From Candidatus Methylomirabilota bacterium (GTDB taxonomy: Bacteria > Methylomirabilota > Methylomirabilia > Rokubacteriales > DASRDR01): a DNA stretch of 36,735 nucleotides. The notes under the pieces were generated by a model. It worked only from the letters and a program-made list of their open reading frames with translations. It ran no database searches and was not told the DNA's origin. The translations under genes and the position numbers were made by a program. The stretch is from positions 1-36,735 of the forward strand of contig DASYQW010000350.1 in the NCBI GenBank assembly GCA_036005065.1, written 5' to 3'. This document shows positions 576-25,410 of the stretch, one piece after another (the stretch's first letter is position 1; each line of letters starts with the position of its first letter).

Positions 576-1121
576 TCAGCGCCCCGGCTGGCCCGCTGCG
601 AAATAGGGATCCCCGAGGCGCGCCACGAAGGCCCGCACGTCGGCCTGCGCCTCGGGGTCCTGCGCGGCGAGACGCAGCGCGATGCGGACACACTGCGCGA
701 CGACCTCCCGATCGCCCAGCGCCGCGAAGGCCTCGGCCACGCGGAGCACGCCCTCGAGCGAATCCTGCTGTCGCGCGCGGAAGAGAGCGGACACGTAGAG
801 GTTGCGGGCCTTGGCGTTGGCGGACTGGCGCAGGCGCGATGCCTCTCCGATCCGCACCGCGGCATCGCCGACCTCGACCATCCCCTCCCAGCGCCAGCTG
901 CCGAGCGCCGCCAGGTAGGCTGCATGCCATGCCCGCTCGGCGGCGCCGATGTCGCGGGCGGCGAGCGCCGAATCCACCGTGCGGACGTGGGCCGCCCAGG
1001 GACTCTCGCGGGTCAGCCTGGCGCTGTCGGCCTGGGTCGGCCCCGCCACCGTGAGCGCCACCACGACCAGCGTGGCCACGAGCGCCTCGGAGCACCGTCG
1101 ATCGATCCATGTCGGACTCAT
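576..1121 (-). CDS. small secreted protein, helical, unknown function
   Basis: The product is 181 residues. The ATG at 1119-1121 is preceded by a GGAGGGAG ribosome binding site. The N-terminus is a classical Sec signal: Arg-Arg near residue 8, a hydrophobic run over residues 13-27 and a likely cleavage after TQA at residue 31. The mature part is almost all helix, with Ala- and Arg-rich segments suggestive of TPR-like repeats (for example around RAWHAAYLAAL and VAEAFAALGDREVV). No enzyme motif is visible. The gene is divergent from the sigma-54 activator at 1376 and lies behind a consensus -24/-12 promoter, so it is the likely direct target of that activator. A periplasmic or exported accessory role is inferred from the signal only. 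Confidence 0.8.
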   Translation of the reverse strand: MSPTWIDRRCSEALVATLVVVALTVAGPTQADSARLTRESPWAAHVRTVDSALAARDIGAAERAWHAAYLAALGSWRWEGMVEVGDAAVRIGEASRLRQSANAKARNLYVSALFRARQQDSLEGVLRVAEAFAALGDREVVAQCVRIALRLAAQDPEAQADVRAFVARLGDPYFAAGQPGR

Positions 1122-1189
1122 GACTCCCTCCCCGGCTGGACCGGCCCGCTTCGGACCTGTCCGGCTTCTCACTGAGCGGCAAGAGAGAC

Positions 1190-1204
1190 GCAACGGCAGT
1201 GCCA
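1190..1204 (-). promoter_or_regulatory. sigma-54 (-24/-12) promoter for the secreted-protein gene
   Basis: On the minus strand these bases read TGGCACTGCCGTTGC, which matches the sigma-54 consensus TGGCAC-N5-TTGC at every fixed position. The GG and GC pairs have the obligatory spacing. The predicted start is near 1178, giving a leader of about 57 nt before the ATG at 1121. The divergent neighbour is a sigma-54 activator. Confidence 0.85.
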
Positions 1205-1250
1205 TCGCCGAGGCGCGCAAAAATCGCCACTTGGGCGTGACGCCGGAGCA

Positions 1251-1292
1251 TTCGGCAGTCCGAGGTGCCCGAATTTCGGCGATTGTGCCGAA
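1251..1292. promoter_or_regulatory. candidate activator-binding dyads (upstream activating sequence)
   Basis: Two inverted repeats share the core TTCGGC/GCCGAA. The first, TTCGGCGATTGTGCCGAA at 1275-1292, is perfect: six-base arms and a six-base spacer. The second, at 1251-1273, pairs TTCGGCA with TGCCCGAA imperfectly. Relative to the predicted start at 1178 they span about -73 to -114, the usual distance for sigma-54 enhancer sites. They also lie about 85-125 bp before the activator's own ATG, so autoregulation is possible. Confidence 0.65.
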
Positions 1293-1375
1293 CGGGGGAG
1301 CAACGAGGCGCAATGGAGAAGGGCAACAAGTACGGGGGAACAACCTCTGGCGGAGAGGAGTAAGATTGACCCGCC

Positions 1376-4300
1376 ATGGACCCCCTCGCGGAGCTGATTG
1401 GGGAAAGCCCGGAGATGATCGCGATCCGGGAGACGATCGGACGGTTGCTCCAGCGCCAGTCCGACGCCCGCCGGCTGCCTCCGATCCTGATCCAGGGGGA
1501 GACGGGGACGGGCAAGGGGTTGGTGGCGCGGGCGCTGCACCAGGCAGGCCCGCGGGCGTCGGCCCCGTTCGTGGACGTCAACTGCGCGGCGATCCCGGAG
1601 ACGCTGCTCGAGTCGGAGATGTTCGGGTTCGAGCGAGGAGCATTCACCGACGCGCGGCAGGCCAAGCGGGGCCTCTTTCAGGCGGCGCATCGCGGAACAC
1701 TGTTCCTGGACGAGGTGGGGCTGCTGCCCGAGGGACTGCAGGCCAAGCTGTTGAAGGTGATCGAGGAGCGCGCGGTACGGCGGCTGGGGAGCACGCGGAG
1801 CGAGCCGGTGGACGTGTGGGTGCTGACGGCGACGAGCGAGAACCTGCTGACGGCGACGCGGGAGCGACGCTTCCGGGAGGACCTCTATCACCGGCTGGCG
1901 GTGCTGACGCTCTGGCTGCCGCCGCTGCGGGACCGGGGCGGGGACGTCGGAGTGCTGGCCGAGCATTTTCTGGCGCGGGCGTGTGCCGACTACGGGCTGC
2001 CGGTGAAGCGGCTGACGGGGGCGGCGCGGGGGGCGCTGGCGGCCTACCGGTGGCCGGGGAATGTGCGGGAGCTGATCAACGCCATGGAGCGGGTGGCATT
2101 GCTGTCGGAGGGCGAGGAGGTGACGCCCGAAGGGCTGGGGCTGCCGGTGGGAGCGCCGGCGGCGCCGGACATGGCGGCCCCGCCGGCCGAGCGGACCGCG
2201 TCGCTGGACGACACGGTGGGAGAGGTGGAGCGGGCGCATCTGCTGAAGGCGCTGGAGGCGACGCACTGGAACATTTCCCGGGCGGCGGCGCGGCTGGGGC
2301 TGCCGCGGAACACGCTGCGCTACCGGATCGAGAAGTACGGGCTGGGGCGGGGGACCGCGGCGCCGCACCGCCGGGAGCGAGCCGAGCCCGCCGCGGCGCC
2401 GGCGACGCCGCCGCGGGCCACCGTGCCGATGGAGCCGCCCGCGCCGACGGTGGTGCGGTGGGAGCGCCGCCGCCTCGCGCTCCTCCGCGTCAGCGTGGTC
2501 ATGCCGGGGCCGGCGGATCCCGCCACGGACCTCAGCCGAGTCCCGGCGCTCCTGGTCGAGAAGGTGCAGAGCTTCGGGGGGCGGATCCAGGAGCTCAGTC
2601 CCGCCGGCATCGTGGCCGCCTTCGGGCTGGAGCCGGTGGAGGACGCCCCGGCGCGCGCCGCGCTCGCCGCGATCGCGATCCAGAAGGCCGCGGAGCGTGT
2701 CGCGGGCGGCGGCGGCGGACTCGGGGTCAAGATGGCGATCCACGTGGGACAGTTCATGCTGGGGCGCCTGGGCGACGCCACGATGATCGACCACGACGCC
2801 AAGCGCGAGGCCTGGGCGATCCTGGAAGAGCTGGTCCGGGACACCGAGCTGGACACGACCCTGGTCAGCAGGACCGCGGCGGCCTTCCTCGACCGTCGCT
2901 TCGAGCTGGCCCGCGCGGGCCCCGTTGCGCCGACCCGGGAGGCGTCCCGGCTGGTGGGCCTCGAGCGCACCGGGCTCAGGCCAGGGGGGCAGATGGCCCG
3001 CTTCGTCGGACGGCAGCACGACCTGGAGCTCCTGAAAAACCGCCTCGAGTCCGCGATGCGGGGACAGGGCCAGGTCGTCGGGATCGTCGGGGAGCCGGGC
3101 ATCGGCAAATCCCGGCTGCTCTTCGAGTCGCGACAGGCCCTGGCCGGCCACGAGGTGACGTACCTGGAAGGCCGTTGCGTCGCCTACGGGAGCACGATCC
3201 CGTATCTTCCGGTGCTCGACATCCTTCGCGCGAGCTGCGGCCTCGCCGAGACCGATCCGCCCGAGGTCATGAGCGCGCGGATCCACGGAAGCCTCGACGC
3301 GCTGGGGATCGATCCGGCCGAGGCCGCGCCGTATCTCCTGGACCTCCTGGGTCTGAAACGGGAGACGCACCGGCTGGCCACGCTGAGCCCCGAGGCCGTC
3401 AAGGCGCGTACGTTCGACATCCTCCGGCAGGTGAGTCTCCGGCGCAGCCGGAATGCCCCGCTCATCATCGTCATGGAGGATCTGCACTGGGTCGACCAGA
3501 CGTCCGAGGAGCTCCTGGCGTCCCTCGTCGAGATGGTGCCGGGCAGCCGGATCCTGCTGGTCACGACGTACCGGCCCGGCTATCGGCCGCCCTGGATCGA
3601 GAAGTCGTACGCGACCCAGATGGCCTTGCAGCCGCTCGCGGCCGAGGAGAGCCTGAGCGTGGTCCGGTCGGTCCTCGGAGTGGACGAGGTGCCCGACTCG
3701 GTCGGGCGGCTGATCCTGGCCAAGGCCGAGGGGAACCCCTTCTTCCTGGAGGAGCTGGCCCGGGCCGTCCGGGAGCAGGGGGGATTCGCCGTCGACTCGA
3801 GCGTCCCGGACACCATCGAAGAGGTCATCCTGGCCCGGATCGATCGCCTCAGCCTGGAAGACAAGGGTCTTCTCCAGGAAGCCTCCGTTATCGGCAAGGA
3901 CGTGCCCGTTTCCCTGGTCGAGGCGATCGCCACGCTGCCCGCCGACGCGCTCGGACAGGGGCTCCGGCGCCTCAGGGCGGCGGAGTTCCTGGTCGAGACG
4001 AGTCCCGGACCCGAGGTCGAGTACACCTTCAAGCACGCGCTGACCCACGAGGTCGCCTACGGCAGCCTCCTCCCCGGCCCGCGGCGCGACCTTCACGGGC
4101 GGATCGTGGAGACCATCGAGCGGCTCCACGCCGGCCGGCTGTCGGAGCACATCGAGCGGCTCGCCCACCACGCGCTCCGGGCCGAGGCGTGGGACAAGGC
4201 CGTGGTCTACTTGCGCCAGGCCGGCGCCAAGGCCGTCGCCCGCTCGGCCCACCGCGAGGCGGCGGTCTACTTCGAGCAGGCGCTGGAGTCGCTGAAGCGA

Positions 4301-5470
4301 CTGCCCGCCGGCCAGCCGGCGACCGAGCAGGCCATCGATCTTCGGCTCGACCTCCGCACGGCCTTGCTGCCGCTCGGCGAATTCGGGCGGATCTACGACG
4401 CCCTGCGGGAGGCGGAGGGTCTCGCCACCACGCTTGGCGATCGTCCCCGCCTGGGGCGGATCGAGGCCTATCTCAGCGACTGTTTCAGGCTGATGGGGGA
4501 TCAGAGCCGCGCCATCGAGGCTGGCCAGCGCGCCCTCACCCTCGCGCGGGAGCTCGAGGATTTCCCGCTACAGGTCGTGACCCACACCTACCTGGGTCTC
4601 ATCTACCACGGACGGGGCGATTACCGACGGGCGATCGACTTCCTGCGGTGGAACGTGGAGGCCCTCGCCGGCGACCTGAGCCGGGTGTCGTTCGACATGG
4701 CCCAGCTCCCGTCCGTCCACTCGCGCACCTGGCTGGTCTGGTGCCTGGCCGAGCTCGGCGAGTTCGAGGAGGGACGCGTTCGCGGGGAAGAGGGCGCGCA
4801 CATCGCCGAGTCCGTCGACCATCCGATGAGCCTCACCGTGGCCTATACGGGGATCGGGCGGCTGTATCTGCACCAGGGCGACCTGGCGCGGGCCACCCCC
4901 GTGCTCGAGCGAGCCCTGGAGCTGAGTCACCGGTGGGGCATCACCGTGTGGCGGCCCAACATCGTGTCGGCGCTGGGCCATGCCTACGCGCTGCAGGGGC
5001 GGCTCGTCGAGGCTCTCCCGCTCCTGGAGCAGGGCGTCGAGGCGGCCGCCACCGGGCAGTTCATGGTCGGCCAATCCCTGCGGGTGGGGTGGCTGAGTGA
5101 GGGATACCGGGCAACGGGGCGGGAGGCGGAAGCGCTGGGACTCGCCCGGACGGCCCTGGAGCTCGCCCGCGGCCACCAGGAGCGCGGCCACGAAGCCTGG
5201 GCGCTCCGGCTCATCGCCGACCTCACCTCGACGGGTGAGCCGCTCGACGCCGGGCAGGCGGAGGCGGGGTACCGTCAAGCGCTGGGGCTGGCCGAGGAAC
5301 TGGGGATGCGGCCGCTCCAGGCCCACTGCCACCTCGGTCTCAGCCGGCTCTACCGCCGGACGGCCGATCCCCCGCGCTCCGCCACCCACCGCGCCAGCGC
5401 CACCGCCCTCTTCCACCAGATGGACATGCGGTGGTGGCTGGAGCGGGCGGCCGGCGAGCCGAACGACTGA
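1376..5470 (+). CDS. sigma-54 activator fused to cyclase-like, STAND ATPase and TPR modules
   Basis: The product is 1364 residues. Residues 1-245 are an NtrC-type AAA+ domain with Walker A GETGTGKG (41-48), the sigma-54 contact loop as GAFTDA (88-93) and Walker B TLFLDE (108-113). Residues 281-322 are a Fis-type helix-turn-helix. Residues about 365-510 resemble a class III cyclase domain but lack the metal-binding aspartates and keep only an IHVGQF-like segment. From 541 a second ATPase follows, with Walker A GEPGIGKS (572-579) and Walker B IIVMED (697-702), of the AAA_16/MalT-like STAND type. The rest (about 960-1364) is TPR-like helical repeat. There is no receiver, PAS or GAF domain, so sensing probably enters through the C-terminal half (inference). 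A GGAGAGGAG lies 15 bases before the ATG. The likely target is the divergent secreted-protein gene. Confidence 0.9.
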
Positions 5471-5857: not shown

Positions 5858-6943
5858 TCAGTTAGACGGATCGGCGCGGGACTCCACGATTCCCTCGAAG
5901 AACTGGTCGGCGTGGAACAGGTCGGGCAGCGTGTCGAGGTCACGCACCATGTAGTAGTCCTCGACCACATCGTACGCCTCTCCGATGTCCACCGGCTCCC
6001 CGAACGCCAGGCGGACATAGGTGAGGGCCATGTTGTGCTTGCCGGTGAGATCGAAGATGGTCGTTCCCGACAGGAGCCGTCCGACGTTGATCTCCGTGAT
6101 GCACGGGGTCCCGCTGGCGTCCTCCTTGAGGTCCACGCTGAAAGCGCCGGTGGCTTCCGGATCCAGCGCTCGGATGGCGCCCGCGCTCACCTCGACCACG
6201 CGCGGCTCGTAGACGGTCTTGTGGAGGGCCCCGACGGAGGAGACCCCGCTGGGTCCGGCTCCGCCGCCGAGGTAGGACAGACGCTCGGTGGTCTTGATGA
6301 GGACGAGGTCGCCGTCCTTCCAGAGGCTCTGGCACGCGAAGTCCCGGCCGGGCAGGTACTCGGAGAGGGTGAAGTCGGTGGCCGGCACCCCCCGCATGTC
6401 GGCCCAGTAGCCGATCCAGGCCCGGGCCTGCTCGGCGGTCTTGATCGGGGTCGCCCCCATCGAGCCGCTGCCGGTCCGAATCCGGCACCACACCCGCGAG
6501 GACGGCGACAGTCGTCCGAAGAGCTCGTCGATACCGTCCAGGTCGGTGACCGGGTAGGTGGCCGGCGCGGGAAGCCCCCGGGATCGGAGAAAGGTCGTGA
6601 GGTCGTACTTGTCCTGGCACAGCGCGATGACCGCCGGTCGGGGCAGGAAGAGACGGCAGGGGAGCTCCTCCCGCAGCCTCGAGGCCACCCGGACGTCCGC
6701 GTCACTGTTGGGGATGAGCAGGTCGATCCGCTCGCCGGCCATGACCTGCTGGAGGCTCTCGCGATAGCCCGGCTGCGCGGGTCGGGGAACGAGATAGTTC
6801 CGATCGGCCGACGACTTCTTGAGGAGGAATCGATCGTGATGGCAGCCGACGAGGAAGAGGGACCGATCCGCGGCCCTCAGGCTGCGGATCAGGTTGTTGC
6901 TCGCGCCGGCGCCGGCGCCGGTAATGAGCAGTCGCTTTTCCAT
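5858..6943 (-). CDS. ATP-grasp domain protein (carbamoyl-phosphate synthase-like)
   Basis: The product is 361 residues. An N-terminal Rossmann-like segment LLITGAGAGASNNLI (5-19) is followed by a pre-ATP-grasp fold, DK at 111-112, a glycine loop SGSMGA (158-163), SEYLPGRDF (194-202) and a metal-binding strand ITEINVGRL with Glu284 and Asn286. This is the architecture of CarB-like stand-alone ATP-grasp enzymes, which join a carboxylate, through an acyl-phosphate, to an amine or similar nucleophile. The substrate is not predictable. The ATG at 6943 is preferred over the TTG at 7003, which falls in the -35 box of a good promoter. It heads an operon with the 67- and 53-residue genes. Confidence 0.85.
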   Translation of the reverse strand: MEKRLLITGAGAGASNNLIRSLRAADRSLFLVGCHHDRFLLKKSSADRNYLVPRPAQPGYRESLQQVMAGERIDLLIPNSDADVRVASRLREELPCRLFLPRPAVIALCQDKYDLTTFLRSRGLPAPATYPVTDLDGIDELFGRLSPSSRVWCRIRTGSGSMGATPIKTAEQARAWIGYWADMRGVPATDFTLSEYLPGRDFACQSLWKDGDLVLIKTTERLSYLGGGAGPSGVSSVGALHKTVYEPRVVEVSAGAIRALDPEATGAFSVDLKEDASGTPCITEINVGRLLSGTTIFDLTGKHNMALTYVRLAFGEPVDIGEAYDVVEDYYMVRDLDTLPDLFHADQFFEGIVESRADPSN

Positions 6944-6974
6944 TCCCCGCCCGACCAAGGGAGAAGACGGCGGG

Positions 6975-7003
6975 AGTATGGCCGCGCCACCGGAGGTTGT
7001 CAA
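6975..7003 (-). promoter_or_regulatory. sigma-70-type promoter for the ATP-grasp operon
   Basis: On the minus strand TTGACA (6998-7003) lies 17 bases before CATACT (6975-6980). The expected start is near 6968, about 25 nt before the ATG at 6943. It is divergent from the dppA promoter 75 bases away. Confidence 0.6.
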
Positions 7004-7106: not shown

Positions 7107-7166
7107 CGCCGCACCAAAGCGTTTCCAGCCAACCAGCCCGAGCCCTCGGGGATGGAGGCCAGGATC

Positions 7167-8963
7167 ATGGACGAGCGCGAGCTCCGGGAATGGCTCGATC
7201 GCGTCAGGGATGGGTCGATCAGTCGCCGCCAGTTCACCCGGATGATGCTCGGTCTCGGGCTCACGGCGCCGATGGCCGCCCAGATGCTATCGGCGGCCGG
7301 GGCGGCCCAGGCCCAGCCGAAGCCGGCCTTCACGCCGACCCGGCGGGGCGGCGGCGGCCAGCTCAAGGTCCTGTGGTGGCAGGCGCCGACCCTGCTCAAC
7401 CCGCACTTCGCCAACGGCACCAAGGACCAGGACGGCTCGCGGCTCTTCTACGAGCCACTCGCCTCGTTCGACCTCGATGGCAACCTCTACCCGGTCCTCG
7501 CCGCCGACCTGCCGAGCGTGGAGAACGGCACGGTGGCGAAGGACGGGCTGTCGGTGACGTGGAAGCTGAAGCGGGGCGTGCAGTGGCACGACGGCAGGCC
7601 CTTCACGGCCGACGACATCCTCTTCAACTGGGAGTACGCAGCCGACCCGGCGACGTCGACGGTGTGGTCGGGGCCGTACCGGGAGATCGCCCGGGTCGAC
7701 AAGCTCGACCCCTACACGGTGAAGCTCGTCTTCAAGAAGCCGACCCCCTTCTGGGCCGACGCCTTCTGCGGCAACACCGGCCAGATCATCCCCCGGCACG
7801 TCTTTGAGCCGTTCAAGGGGGCGAAGTCGCGGGAGGCCCCAGCCAACCTCAAGGCCGTCGGCACCGGGCCCTACCGGCTCGTCGAGTTCAAGCCCGGCGA
7901 CACGGTCCGGGCCGAGCTGAACCCCCACTACCACGTTCCCAACTGGCCGTTCTTCGACCAGCTCGAGCTCAAGGGGGGTGGCGACGCCGTGTCGGCGGCC
8001 CGCGCCGTCCTCCAGACCGGCGAGTTCGACTTCGCCTGGAACATGCAGGTCGAGGATGACATCCTGCGGCGCATGGAGCAGGGCGGAAAGGGCCGGATCG
8101 ACATCTCGCCCACCGGCAACATCGAGCACATCCAGCTCAACCAGAGCGACCCGTGGAAGGAGGTCGACGGCGAGCGGGCGAGCGCCCGGACTACCCATCC
8201 CTTCCTGACCGACCCGGCGGTGCGATCGGCCTTGAACCTGCTGGTCGATCGCGCGACGGTCCAGGAGCAGATCTACGGGCGCGGCGGGCAGGCGACCGCC
8301 AACTTCCTCAACGCCCCGTCCCGGTTCGCGTCGAAGAACCTGCGGTGGGAGTTCAACGTCGACAAGGCCAACCAGATCCTCGACGCTGGCGGCTGGAAGC
8401 GCGGCCCGGACGGCGTGCGGGTCAAGGACGGGAAGCGGCTCCGGGTCGTGTACCAGACCTCGATCAACGCGCCTCGCCAGAAGAACCAGGCCATCGTCAA
8501 GCAAGCGTGCGCGAAGGCCGGGATCGAGGTCGAGCTGAAGGCGGTGGTGGCGTCGGTCTTCTTCGCTTCGGACCCCGGCAACCCCGATACCCACCCGCAC
8601 TTCTACGCCGACCTCCAGATGTACAACACCACGATGACGTCGCCCGACCCCCAGCTCTTCATGCATCAGTTCGTCTCCACCGAGATCGCCGCCAAGGCCA
8701 ACAAGTGGGCCGGGCGGAACGTCACCCGGTGGCGCAACGAGGAGTACGACCGGCTCTGGAGCGCGGCCGAGAGCGAGATGGACCCCGTCAAGCGCGCCGC
8801 GATGTTCGTGCGGATGAACGACCTGTTGACCCAGAACGTGGTCGTCATCCCGGTCCTCTGGCGAAACCGGCTCCAGGCGATCTCGCATCGGCTGCGGGGC
8901 ACCGAGATCAGCGGCTGGGACTCGGGCGTCGCGCAACTGGCGTTCTGGTACCGCGAAGGCTGA
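7167..8963 (+). CDS. peptide-type ABC transporter substrate-binding protein, Tat-exported (copy 1)
   Basis: The product is 598 residues, a family 5 (DppA/OppA-like, SBP_bac_5) binding protein that would capture a peptide or similar ligand outside the membrane and deliver it to DppB/DppC-type permeases. The N-terminus has a twin-arginine signal SRRQFTRMM (19-27), a hydrophobic stretch and probable cleavage near AQA at 48-50. The family pattern is clear: WKLKRGVQWHDG, FTADDI and GTGPYRL. I chose the ATG at 7167, which matches the start of the tandem paralogue and follows GGAGG by eight bases, over the ATG at 7152. A very similar paralogue follows 19 bases after the stop. Confidence 0.9.
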   Translation: MDERELREWLDRVRDGSISRRQFTRMMLGLGLTAPMAAQMLSAAGAAQAQPKPAFTPTRRGGGGQLKVLWWQAPTLLNPHFANGTKDQDGSRLFYEPLASFDLDGNLYPVLAADLPSVENGTVAKDGLSVTWKLKRGVQWHDGRPFTADDILFNWEYAADPATSTVWSGPYREIARVDKLDPYTVKLVFKKPTPFWADAFCGNTGQIIPRHVFEPFKGAKSREAPANLKAVGTGPYRLVEFKPGDTVRAELNPHYHVPNWPFFDQLELKGGGDAVSAARAVLQTGEFDFAWNMQVEDDILRRMEQGGKGRIDISPTGNIEHIQLNQSDPWKEVDGERASARTTHPFLTDPAVRSALNLLVDRATVQEQIYGRGGQATANFLNAPSRFASKNLRWEFNVDKANQILDAGGWKRGPDGVRVKDGKRLRVVYQTSINAPRQKNQAIVKQACAKAGIEVELKAVVASVFFASDPGNPDTHPHFYADLQMYNTTMTSPDPQLFMHQFVSTEIAAKANKWAGRNVTRWRNEEYDRLWSAAESEMDPVKRAAMFVRMNDLLTQNVVVIPVLWRNRLQAISHRLRGTEISGWDSGVAQLAFWYREG

Positions 8964-8982: not shown

Positions 8983-10776
8983 ATGGACGAGCGCGAGCTG
9001 CGCGCCTGGATCGATCGGGTCAAGGACGGGACGCTGAGCCGCCGGCAGTTCACCCGGATGATGCTCGGTCTCGGGCTCACGGCGCCGATGGGCGCCCAGA
9101 TGCTGTCGGCGGCCGGGGTGGCCCAGGCCCAGCCGAAGCCGGCCTTCACGCCGACCCGGCGGGGCGGCGGCGGCGAGCTCCGCGTGCTCTGGTGGCAGGC
9201 GGTCAGCATCCTGAACTCCCACCTCGCGGTCGGCGTGAAGGACAACGACGGCTCGCGGCTCTTCAGCGAGCCGCTGGCGGCCTTCGACCCCGATGGCAAC
9301 CTGGTGCCGATCCTGGCCGCCGAGGTGCCGAGCCTCCAGAACGGTGCGGTCGCGAAGGACGGCCTGTCGGTCACCTGGAAGCTCAAGCGGGGCGTCCAGT
9401 GGCATGACGGCAAGCCCTTCACCGCCGACGACGTCATCTTTACCTGGGAATTCGCGGCCGATCCCGCGACGGCGGCCACCACCCACGGCCAGTACCGGGA
9501 CATCGCCCGGGTGGACAAGCTCGACTCCCACGCGGTCAAGGTCGTCTTCAAGAACCCCATGCCCTTCTGGCCGATCGCCTTCTGCGGAACGGCCGGGCAC
9601 ATCCTGCCCCGGCACCTGTTCGAGCCCTTCAAGGGCGCGAAGTCGCGGGAGGCGCCGGGCAACCTCAAGCCGGTCGGCACCGGGCCCTATCGCTACGTCG
9701 ACTTCAAGCCGAACGACGTCGTGCGGGCCGAGCTGAACCCGAACTATCACGTTCCCAACTGGCCCTTCTTCGACCGGATCGAGATGAAGGGGGGCGGGGA
9801 CGCGGTGTCGGCGGCGCGGGCGGTCATCCAGACCGGGGAGTACGACTTCGCCTGGAATCTCCAGGTCGAAGACGACATCCTCAAGCGAATGGAGCAGGGC
9901 GGCAAAGGCCGGGTGGACATGGTGCAGTCGGGCAACATCGAGCACGTCAACGTCAACCAGACCGATCCCTGGACGGAGGTCGACGGCGAGCGGTCGAGCG
10001 TCAAGACGAGGCACCCGCTGCTGTCCGATCCCGCGGTCCGACAGGCGCTGACCCTCCTCGTCGACCGCGGGTCCATCCAGGAGCAGGTCTACGGGCGGCT
10101 GGGCCAGGCGACGGCGAACTACCTGAACGCGCCGTCGCGGTTTCAGTCCAAGAACACGAAGTGGGAGTTCAGCATCGAGAAGGCCAACAGGATCCTGGAC
10201 GAGGCCGGCTGGAGGCGGGGCGCCGACGGCATCCGGTCCAAGGACGGCAAGCGTCTCAAGCTCGTGTTCCAGACGTCCATCAACGCCGCGCGCCAGAAGC
10301 AGCAGGCGGTCATCAAGCAGGCGGCGGCCAAAGCCGGGATCGACATGGAGCTCAAGACCGTGGTCGCCTCCGTGTTCTTCGGGTCGGATCCCGGGAACCC
10401 CGACACGATCGGCAAGTTCGGGGCCGACCTCCAGATGTATGCCTGGCAGTTCGGGGTCGATCCCCAGCGATCCATGGAGGTGTTCGCCTCGTGGGAGGTC
10501 GCCACCAAGGAAAACAAGTGGGCCGGCCGGAACACGACCCGCTGGCGCAACGAGGAGTACGACCGGCTGTGGAAGGCGGCCGACAGCGAGATGGACCCCG
10601 TCAAGCGAGCGGGACTCTTCATCCGCATGAACGACCTCCTCGTCCAGAACGTCGTCGTCGTGCCGCTCATCTGGCGGAGCTGGATCTCGGGGATCTCCAA
10701 CAAGCTCAAGGGAACCGAGATCAGCGGGTGGGACTCGAGCTTCTGGAACCTGGCGCACTGGTACCGCGAGGCCTGA
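8983..10776 (+). CDS. peptide-type ABC transporter substrate-binding protein, Tat-exported (copy 2)
   Basis: The product is 597 residues, aligned end to end with the preceding gene and identical at most positions by eye. It keeps the twin-arginine signal SRRQFTRMM, WKLKRGVQWHDG and GTGPYRY. Differences cluster in ligand-contact-type regions: the segment after GGG, and around residues 480-500 where copy 1 has an NTTMTSPDP stretch and this copy AWQFGVDP. The two may therefore bind different ligands for one shared permease pair. A GGGAGG ribosome binding site lies six bases before the ATG. A tandem duplication is the simplest origin. A stable hairpin follows the stop. Confidence 0.9.
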   Translation: MDERELRAWIDRVKDGTLSRRQFTRMMLGLGLTAPMGAQMLSAAGVAQAQPKPAFTPTRRGGGGELRVLWWQAVSILNSHLAVGVKDNDGSRLFSEPLAAFDPDGNLVPILAAEVPSLQNGAVAKDGLSVTWKLKRGVQWHDGKPFTADDVIFTWEFAADPATAATTHGQYRDIARVDKLDSHAVKVVFKNPMPFWPIAFCGTAGHILPRHLFEPFKGAKSREAPGNLKPVGTGPYRYVDFKPNDVVRAELNPNYHVPNWPFFDRIEMKGGGDAVSAARAVIQTGEYDFAWNLQVEDDILKRMEQGGKGRVDMVQSGNIEHVNVNQTDPWTEVDGERSSVKTRHPLLSDPAVRQALTLLVDRGSIQEQVYGRLGQATANYLNAPSRFQSKNTKWEFSIEKANRILDEAGWRRGADGIRSKDGKRLKLVFQTSINAARQKQQAVIKQAAAKAGIDMELKTVVASVFFGSDPGNPDTIGKFGADLQMYAWQFGVDPQRSMEVFASWEVATKENKWAGRNTTRWRNEEYDRLWKAADSEMDPVKRAGLFIRMNDLLVQNVVVVPLIWRSWISGISNKLKGTEISGWDSSFWNLAHWYREA

Positions 10777-25395: not shown

Positions 25396-25410
25396 TGGCA
25401 TCCTTCTTGC
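25396..25410 (+). promoter_or_regulatory. sigma-54-type (-24/-12) promoter for the 64-residue membrane protein
   Basis: TGGCATCCTTCTTGC matches TGGCAC-N5-TTGC with one change (C to T in the last base of the first box) and exact spacing. The predicted start is near 25422, giving a leader of about 92 nt. No sigma-70-type boxes were noticed in this 299-base gap. Confidence 0.7.

Follow-up and report, generated by a model that had tools for sequence, protein, structure and literature searches.

A conserved promoter region of sigma-54, enhancer-dependent layout between a divergent activator gene and the gene for a helical-repeat protein in Rokubacteria

Phylogenetic footprinting confirms that the intergenic region at 1122-1375 of the window (the whole 36,735-nt stretch of DNA analysed here) has the classical layout of a sigma-54, enhancer-dependent promoter region, with activation itself read from the sequence. 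The explanation that best accounts for our data, to which we assign a probability of about 0.85, is that an activator encoded on one side of this region would act from a dyad, with the help of a bend at an IHF-like site, on the sigma-54 promoter of a gene for an exported protein on the other side. The promoter, its conservation, the spacing of the sequence blocks, their linkage to the activator gene and the covariation between the activator's helix-turn-helix (HTH) and the dyad are established computationally. Rokubacteria are little-known uncultured bacteria from soil and groundwater. The features on which the argument draws are as follows.

576-1121, minus strand (with stop codon): gene for an exported or membrane-anchored 181-aa alpha-solenoid protein, the predicted sigma-54 target
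1190-1204, minus strand (read 1204 to 1190): sigma-54 -24/-12 promoter TGGCACTGCCGTTGC, predicted start 1178
1222-1234, minus strand: IHF-like element CCAAGTGGCGATT, matching the consensus at 6 of 9 positions and spanning about -44 to -56
1251-1292, no strand assigned: GCCGAA/TTCGGC half-site region, candidate upstream activating sequence, half-sites at 1251, 1275 and 1287, -73 to -114
1266-1282, minus strand: candidate upstream activating sequence slot TCGCCGAAATTCGGGCA at the position of the family's 17-bp dyad, weak motif match
1361-1366, plus strand: TAAGAT, probable sigma-70 -10 element of the activator gene, start codon 10 nt after
1376-5470, plus strand: sigma-54 activator, 1364 aa, AAA+ / Fis HTH / cyclase-like / AAA_16 ATPase / TPR (Pfam; NCBIfam TIGR03903)
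1637-1654, plus strand: GAFTDA loop, a variant of GAFTGA, present in every activator-family member covering that region
2216-2338, plus strand: Fis-type HTH (Pfam HTH_8), residues 281-321, with the Tyr316 codon at 2321-2323 in the recognition helix
2612-5332, plus strand: C-terminal module resembling TOMM kinase/cyclase fusions (cyclase-like, AAA_16, TPR) from profile matches, presumed sensor

The original prediction had described a 181-residue open reading frame, a divergent sigma-54 activator gene and, between them, a TGGCAC-N5-TTGC box on the minus strand. Both genes are as described, and the box is present with correct spacing and the invariant GG and GC. Its -12 C at 1190 places the calculated start at 1178, as claimed, 57 nt 5' of the target's ATG at 1121, which has GGGGAGGGAG shortly before it. 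The box is the sole exact match within the 36.7 kb window; when one mismatch is allowed there are 2 matches where 1.35 are expected by chance, and the box alone is therefore weak evidence rather than proof. A second sigma-54-like box, TGGCATCCTTCTTGC, lies at 25396-25410 on the plus strand with only short open reading frames downstream. The genome contains one rpoN (PF04552, E 3.4e-62; RpoN box intact, ARRTVAKYR), and TGGCAY-N5-TTGC occurs 43 times genome-wide compared with 4 occurrences of the reversed control pattern. Judging from translations read by eye, genes that follow these sites include glnB-amtB, polysaccharide export genes and response regulators. At three of the genome's sigma-54 promoters (L193, L200 and L180, on contigs C195, C286 and C74) an element resembling GGCAACAATTGC or CAACAATT lies upstream, and the genes downstream are polysaccharide-export and surface-protein-like. 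These promoters probably form the regulon of another activator, perhaps one linked to exosortase/PEP-CTERM.

What raises the window's box above chance is its conservation. The window's own family consists of one genome, a search of which gave no relatives, and the homologue search was therefore taken to class level, where about 75 homologues were found in 42 of 95 genomes; a scan of genome contigs returned only two loci, and both named matches were Candidatus Rokuibacteriota. We defined a strict promoter as TGG[CT]A[CT]-N5-NTGC no more than 400 nt upstream and scored the 53 first or only copies of the target gene with enough upstream sequence. A strict box precedes 41 of the 53, compared with 0.23 expected from dinucleotide shuffles, on the coding strand every time and never on the opposite one. 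Among tandem downstream copies it is found in 1 of 19, and that one is a duplicate match of the same region. Roughly a dozen first copies have no strict promoter, in some cases through contig ends or because the box is looser or more distant. The original prediction had named as refuting it relatives in which both genes persist together but promoter and dyads do not, and its core claim passes this test: the upstream regions of relatives bear out the promoter, and the dyad slot is kept by position. A coincidental match of box and dyads in GC-rich DNA could draw on the 1.35 boxes expected in the window at one mismatch, but conservation measured against shuffles and control strands, together with the excess over the reversed pattern genome-wide (43 against 4), rules out a chance -24/-12 box and makes that reading a negligible one.

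The divergent activator is retained at about 25 loci in many genera, and across many genera activator, dyad and promoter are linked at near-constant spacing. The window itself departs from the common arrangement: 171 nt separate the activator start from the -24 element, compared with 107-125 nt in most relatives, which counts against our preferred explanation. Beyond the activator, a recurrent neighbour is an ATP-grasp/PylC-like protein (5858-7003, minus strand; weak Pfam matches only). Genes related to it lie near the activator at 13 other loci and keep this position at 12, so the order of the locus is old.

The three GCCGAA/TTCGGC half-sites at 1251-1292 lie at -73 to -114 as originally reported, and at least three such half-sites occur in the 171-bp intergenic gap in only 14 of 5000 dinucleotide shuffles. 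Across the family, promoters anchored on the -24 element reveal an imperfect 17-bp dyad that starts 79-87 nt 5' of the -24 in 43 of 57 cases (Gibbs score 627, compared with 310 on shuffled sequence), with examples such as TGTTCAA-CTC-TTGACCA, TGCTCAA-GTT-TCCACCA and TGCCGAA-AAT-TCCGCCA. Between dyad and promoter, an IHF-like element (YAANNNNTTGATW, scoring 7 of 9 or more) is present in 30 of the 57 family promoters, compared with 3.5 expected and with 2 of 36 other sigma-54 promoters of the genome; 24 of the 30 lie at exactly 29-30 nt from the -24. The genome encodes an IHF-alpha that passes the curated cut-off and an IHF-beta-like protein that narrowly misses it. The window's dyad scored poorly when scanned with the family motif, and its assignment is therefore by position and by the genome's own paralogues only; its IHF-like site, at 6 of 9, is similarly degenerate. 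Both elements align in position with those of the paralogues on contigs C185 and C258. The proposed enhancer role of the dyads thus holds for the slot, which is conserved in position, and less well for the window's own sequences, which are degenerate relative to the family elements.

Support for a functional connection between activator and dyad comes from 28 linked activator-promoter pairs. At HTH position 316 the activators have Ala or Ser where the 3' half-site is TTKACCA, and Tyr where it is not of this type (C[AG]CC with a single exception). Of the 259 columns that vary within the first 360 residues, 316 is the sole errorless predictor of dyad class (28/28). A tree built without the HTH places three changes for each trait, so the covariation represents only 3 independent changes, with good branch support for 2, and the sequences had been inspected before the dyad classes were named. 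With that reservation, the covariation ties the divergent activator to the dyad and argues for binding there. The central claim of the original prediction, that the divergent activator switches on the exported gene, gains from the conserved promoter and from this pairing of residue 316 with dyad class; direct activation is what we infer from them.

The same prediction held that the two genes form a self-contained pair, and this part does not survive. Where a divergent activator is present, 17 of 23 first or only copies have the strict promoter; where there is none, 24 of 30 still do, many of these with the same dyad. Several sister activators face other genes, which from translations read by eye encode a lipoprotein, a phosphatidyltransferase-like and an aminotransferase-like protein. 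The genome holds three paralogous targets, two besides the window copy, and the one on contig C185 is divergent from a paralogous activator. On this comparison of loci, the activator-target pair is not self-contained. As a partial check, promoters with a clear dyad that are not driven by an adjoining activator lie, wherever activators were found, in genomes with an activator of matching type (10/10); because most such genomes hold Tyr-type activators anyway, the match supports trans control and does not prove it. One could envision that the sigma-54 promoter is real but is driven by a paralogue of the same family or by an activator of another family, with the neighbour a bystander or one of several regulators. 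The three close activator paralogues in the genome (on C185, C72 and C329), all also with Tyr at position 316, the three paralogous targets and the degenerate window dyad speak for this arrangement, whereas the near-constant spacing of activator, dyad and promoter in many genera and the covariation within linked pairs speak against it, and we consider it unlikely, if worth keeping in view.

Two loci of the same class but of a different family within it (L163 and L165, family f10) carry activator relatives with a divergent -24/-12 promoter and an IHF-like site. Their upstream element differs (CCCCCACT) and neither has a target homologue, and the sigma-54 switch may therefore be older than its present target.

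The region also appears to contain the activator's own promoter. In most of 47 activator genes TANNAT stands 12-18 nt 5' of the start codon, so the activator transcript is probably leaderless or nearly so. In many relatives the -35-like TTGAAC or TTGAGC is at the same time a dyad half-site, from which autorepression is predicted in those genomes. By extension, the region might mainly set the activator's own level, with dyad-bound activator blocking its own sigma-70 promoter and the target a secondary output. The conserved -24/-12 boxes, however, point toward the target, and autorepression is not evident in the window, which has a weak -35 and some 80-95 bp between the dyad and the -10. We regard this alternative as rather improbable and favor activation of the target gene.

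The activator combines a familiar core with an unfamiliar C-terminus. It has a Walker A/B AAA+ domain and a Fis HTH (PF00158, 2.9e-59; PF25601; PF02954), and the AAA+ domain occupies residues 7-254, from the very start of the protein, with no N-terminal sensor. As in PspF-type activators there is no N-terminal regulatory domain; PspF, however, is short, whereas the HTH here is followed by a C-terminal module of about 1000 residues. In view of the missing N-terminal domain, this cyclase-like/ATPase/TPR module is the likely signal receiver. Residues 413-1319 match positions 345-1261 of TIGR03903, the model for TOMM kinase/cyclase fusions, with which the protein shares its cyclase-like/ATPase/TPR part, but the score (301.8 bits) is far below the model's cut-off of 705.75, the kinase part is unmatched and sigma-54 AAA+ and Fis HTH domains stand in its place. 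No TOMM cluster was seen in the examined part of the window. Pfam finds no cyclase domain in the window's activator and, in the C185 paralogue, PF00211 at no better than E 0.18; the cyclase-like part can hardly be recognized as such and is presumably not catalytic.

The activators also share an unusual sigma-54 contact loop. GAFTDA is invariant across the family, and most other activators of the genome have GAFTGA. The engineered NorR variant G266D, which has the same GAFTDA sequence, stays active and escapes repression by its GAF domain (PMC2941729), and in Desulfovibrio GAFTDA is counted among the loops compatible with activation (PMC4641369). A filter that requires an exact GAFTGA, as used in PMC12316311, would miss such activators. 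Our findings suggest that GAFTDA activators with C-terminal ATPase/TPR sensors are a substantial natural class. This variant loop, the C-terminal module, the IHF-like element and the leaderless activator promoter had no place in the original prediction.

The target has no Pfam or NCBIfam match, Pfam TPR included, and we reject its assignment to a known protein family since it resembles helical-repeat folds only. An AlphaFold2 model built with 62 homologues (pLDDT 87) contains helices only, beginning with a hydrophobic N-terminal one, and residues 41-169 form an all-helical solenoid (pLDDT about 97). In the PDB it most resembles TPR or designed helical repeats, with no match at E<0.001 and with TM scores of 0.35-0.5. 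The protein had been called secreted; its hydrophobic N-terminus agrees with export or membrane anchoring, but the second copies at tandem loci are cytoplasmic. Of 53 first or single copies, 43 have a hydrophobic segment at the N-terminus, compared with 2 of 18 downstream copies, so in the usual tandem unit the gene for an exported or anchored protein comes first and that for its cytoplasmic twin second. In the window no twin lies directly 3' of the target. Elsewhere in the genome, a sigma-54 promoter (L209, contig C413, site at 31) stands 5' of a gene for a 123-aa exported protein with a target-like helical stretch, a possible distant member of the family.

The loci we compared share no downstream operon genes from which the function of the target could be read, and besides the ATP-grasp protein the recurrent neighbours are peptide transporter genes at varying places. 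The window holds two adjacent and very similar peptide-binding transporter proteins (7152-8963 and 8983-10776, plus strand), both with a twin-arginine-like SRRQF start. Most probably the target serves at the cell envelope as a scaffold or binding protein. Alternatively, it could feed back on the activator, its solenoid or that of its twin meeting the TPR/ATPase module in a closed sensory loop rather than acting as effector to a sensor. The exported/cytoplasmic twin arrangement at tandem loci and the TPR-like fold of the target, paired with TPR in the activator, lend this idea some appeal, but many target copies are unlinked to any activator and we give it little credence.

How might the region work? 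We envision a scenario in which a nearly leaderless promoter of sigma-70 type supplies the activator, whose Fis-type HTH then attaches it to the dyad (about -88 to -104). A DNA bend at the IHF-like site, about -50, would bring the activator to sigma-54 RNA polymerase at the -24/-12 element, and ATP hydrolysis by the AAA+ ring would open the promoter and turn on the exported TPR-like protein, presumably in response to a signal received by the C-terminal module. This arrangement is reminiscent of the IHF-assisted sigma-54 enhancer promoters controlled by NtrC, NifA, NorR and PspF, which it resembles in its -24/-12 element, in a dyad at about -90 to -105 with an IHF-like site between, and in an AAA+ activator with a Fis HTH that is often divergent from its target. 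It differs from them in its new target family, new dyad sequences, presumed C-terminal sensor and GAFTDA in place of GAFTGA. The one-component activators of Desulfovibrio vulgaris are likewise divergent from sigma-54 promoters and include GAFTDA proteins, but phylum, targets and accessory domains are different (PMC4641369). The mechanism is thus a known one, and it is the activator and the target that look new. Our literature search found nothing on sigma-54 control in Rokubacteria/Methylomirabilota or on activators with AAA_16, and no cultivated model for Rokubacteria.

At a broader level, phylum-restricted sigma-54 activators with a C-terminal cyclase-like/STAND-type ATPase/TPR receiver and a residue-316 code could control both in cis and in trans a multi-copy family of helical-repeat proteins that are exported and paired with cytoplasmic twins, and so give Rokubacteria a system dedicated to envelope sensing or to a scaffold role; we advance this tentatively, at a little short of even odds. 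Importantly, sequence alone links regulator, dyad, promoter and target family here, down to one residue of a recognition helix, and yields predictions that can be tested in a heterologous host.
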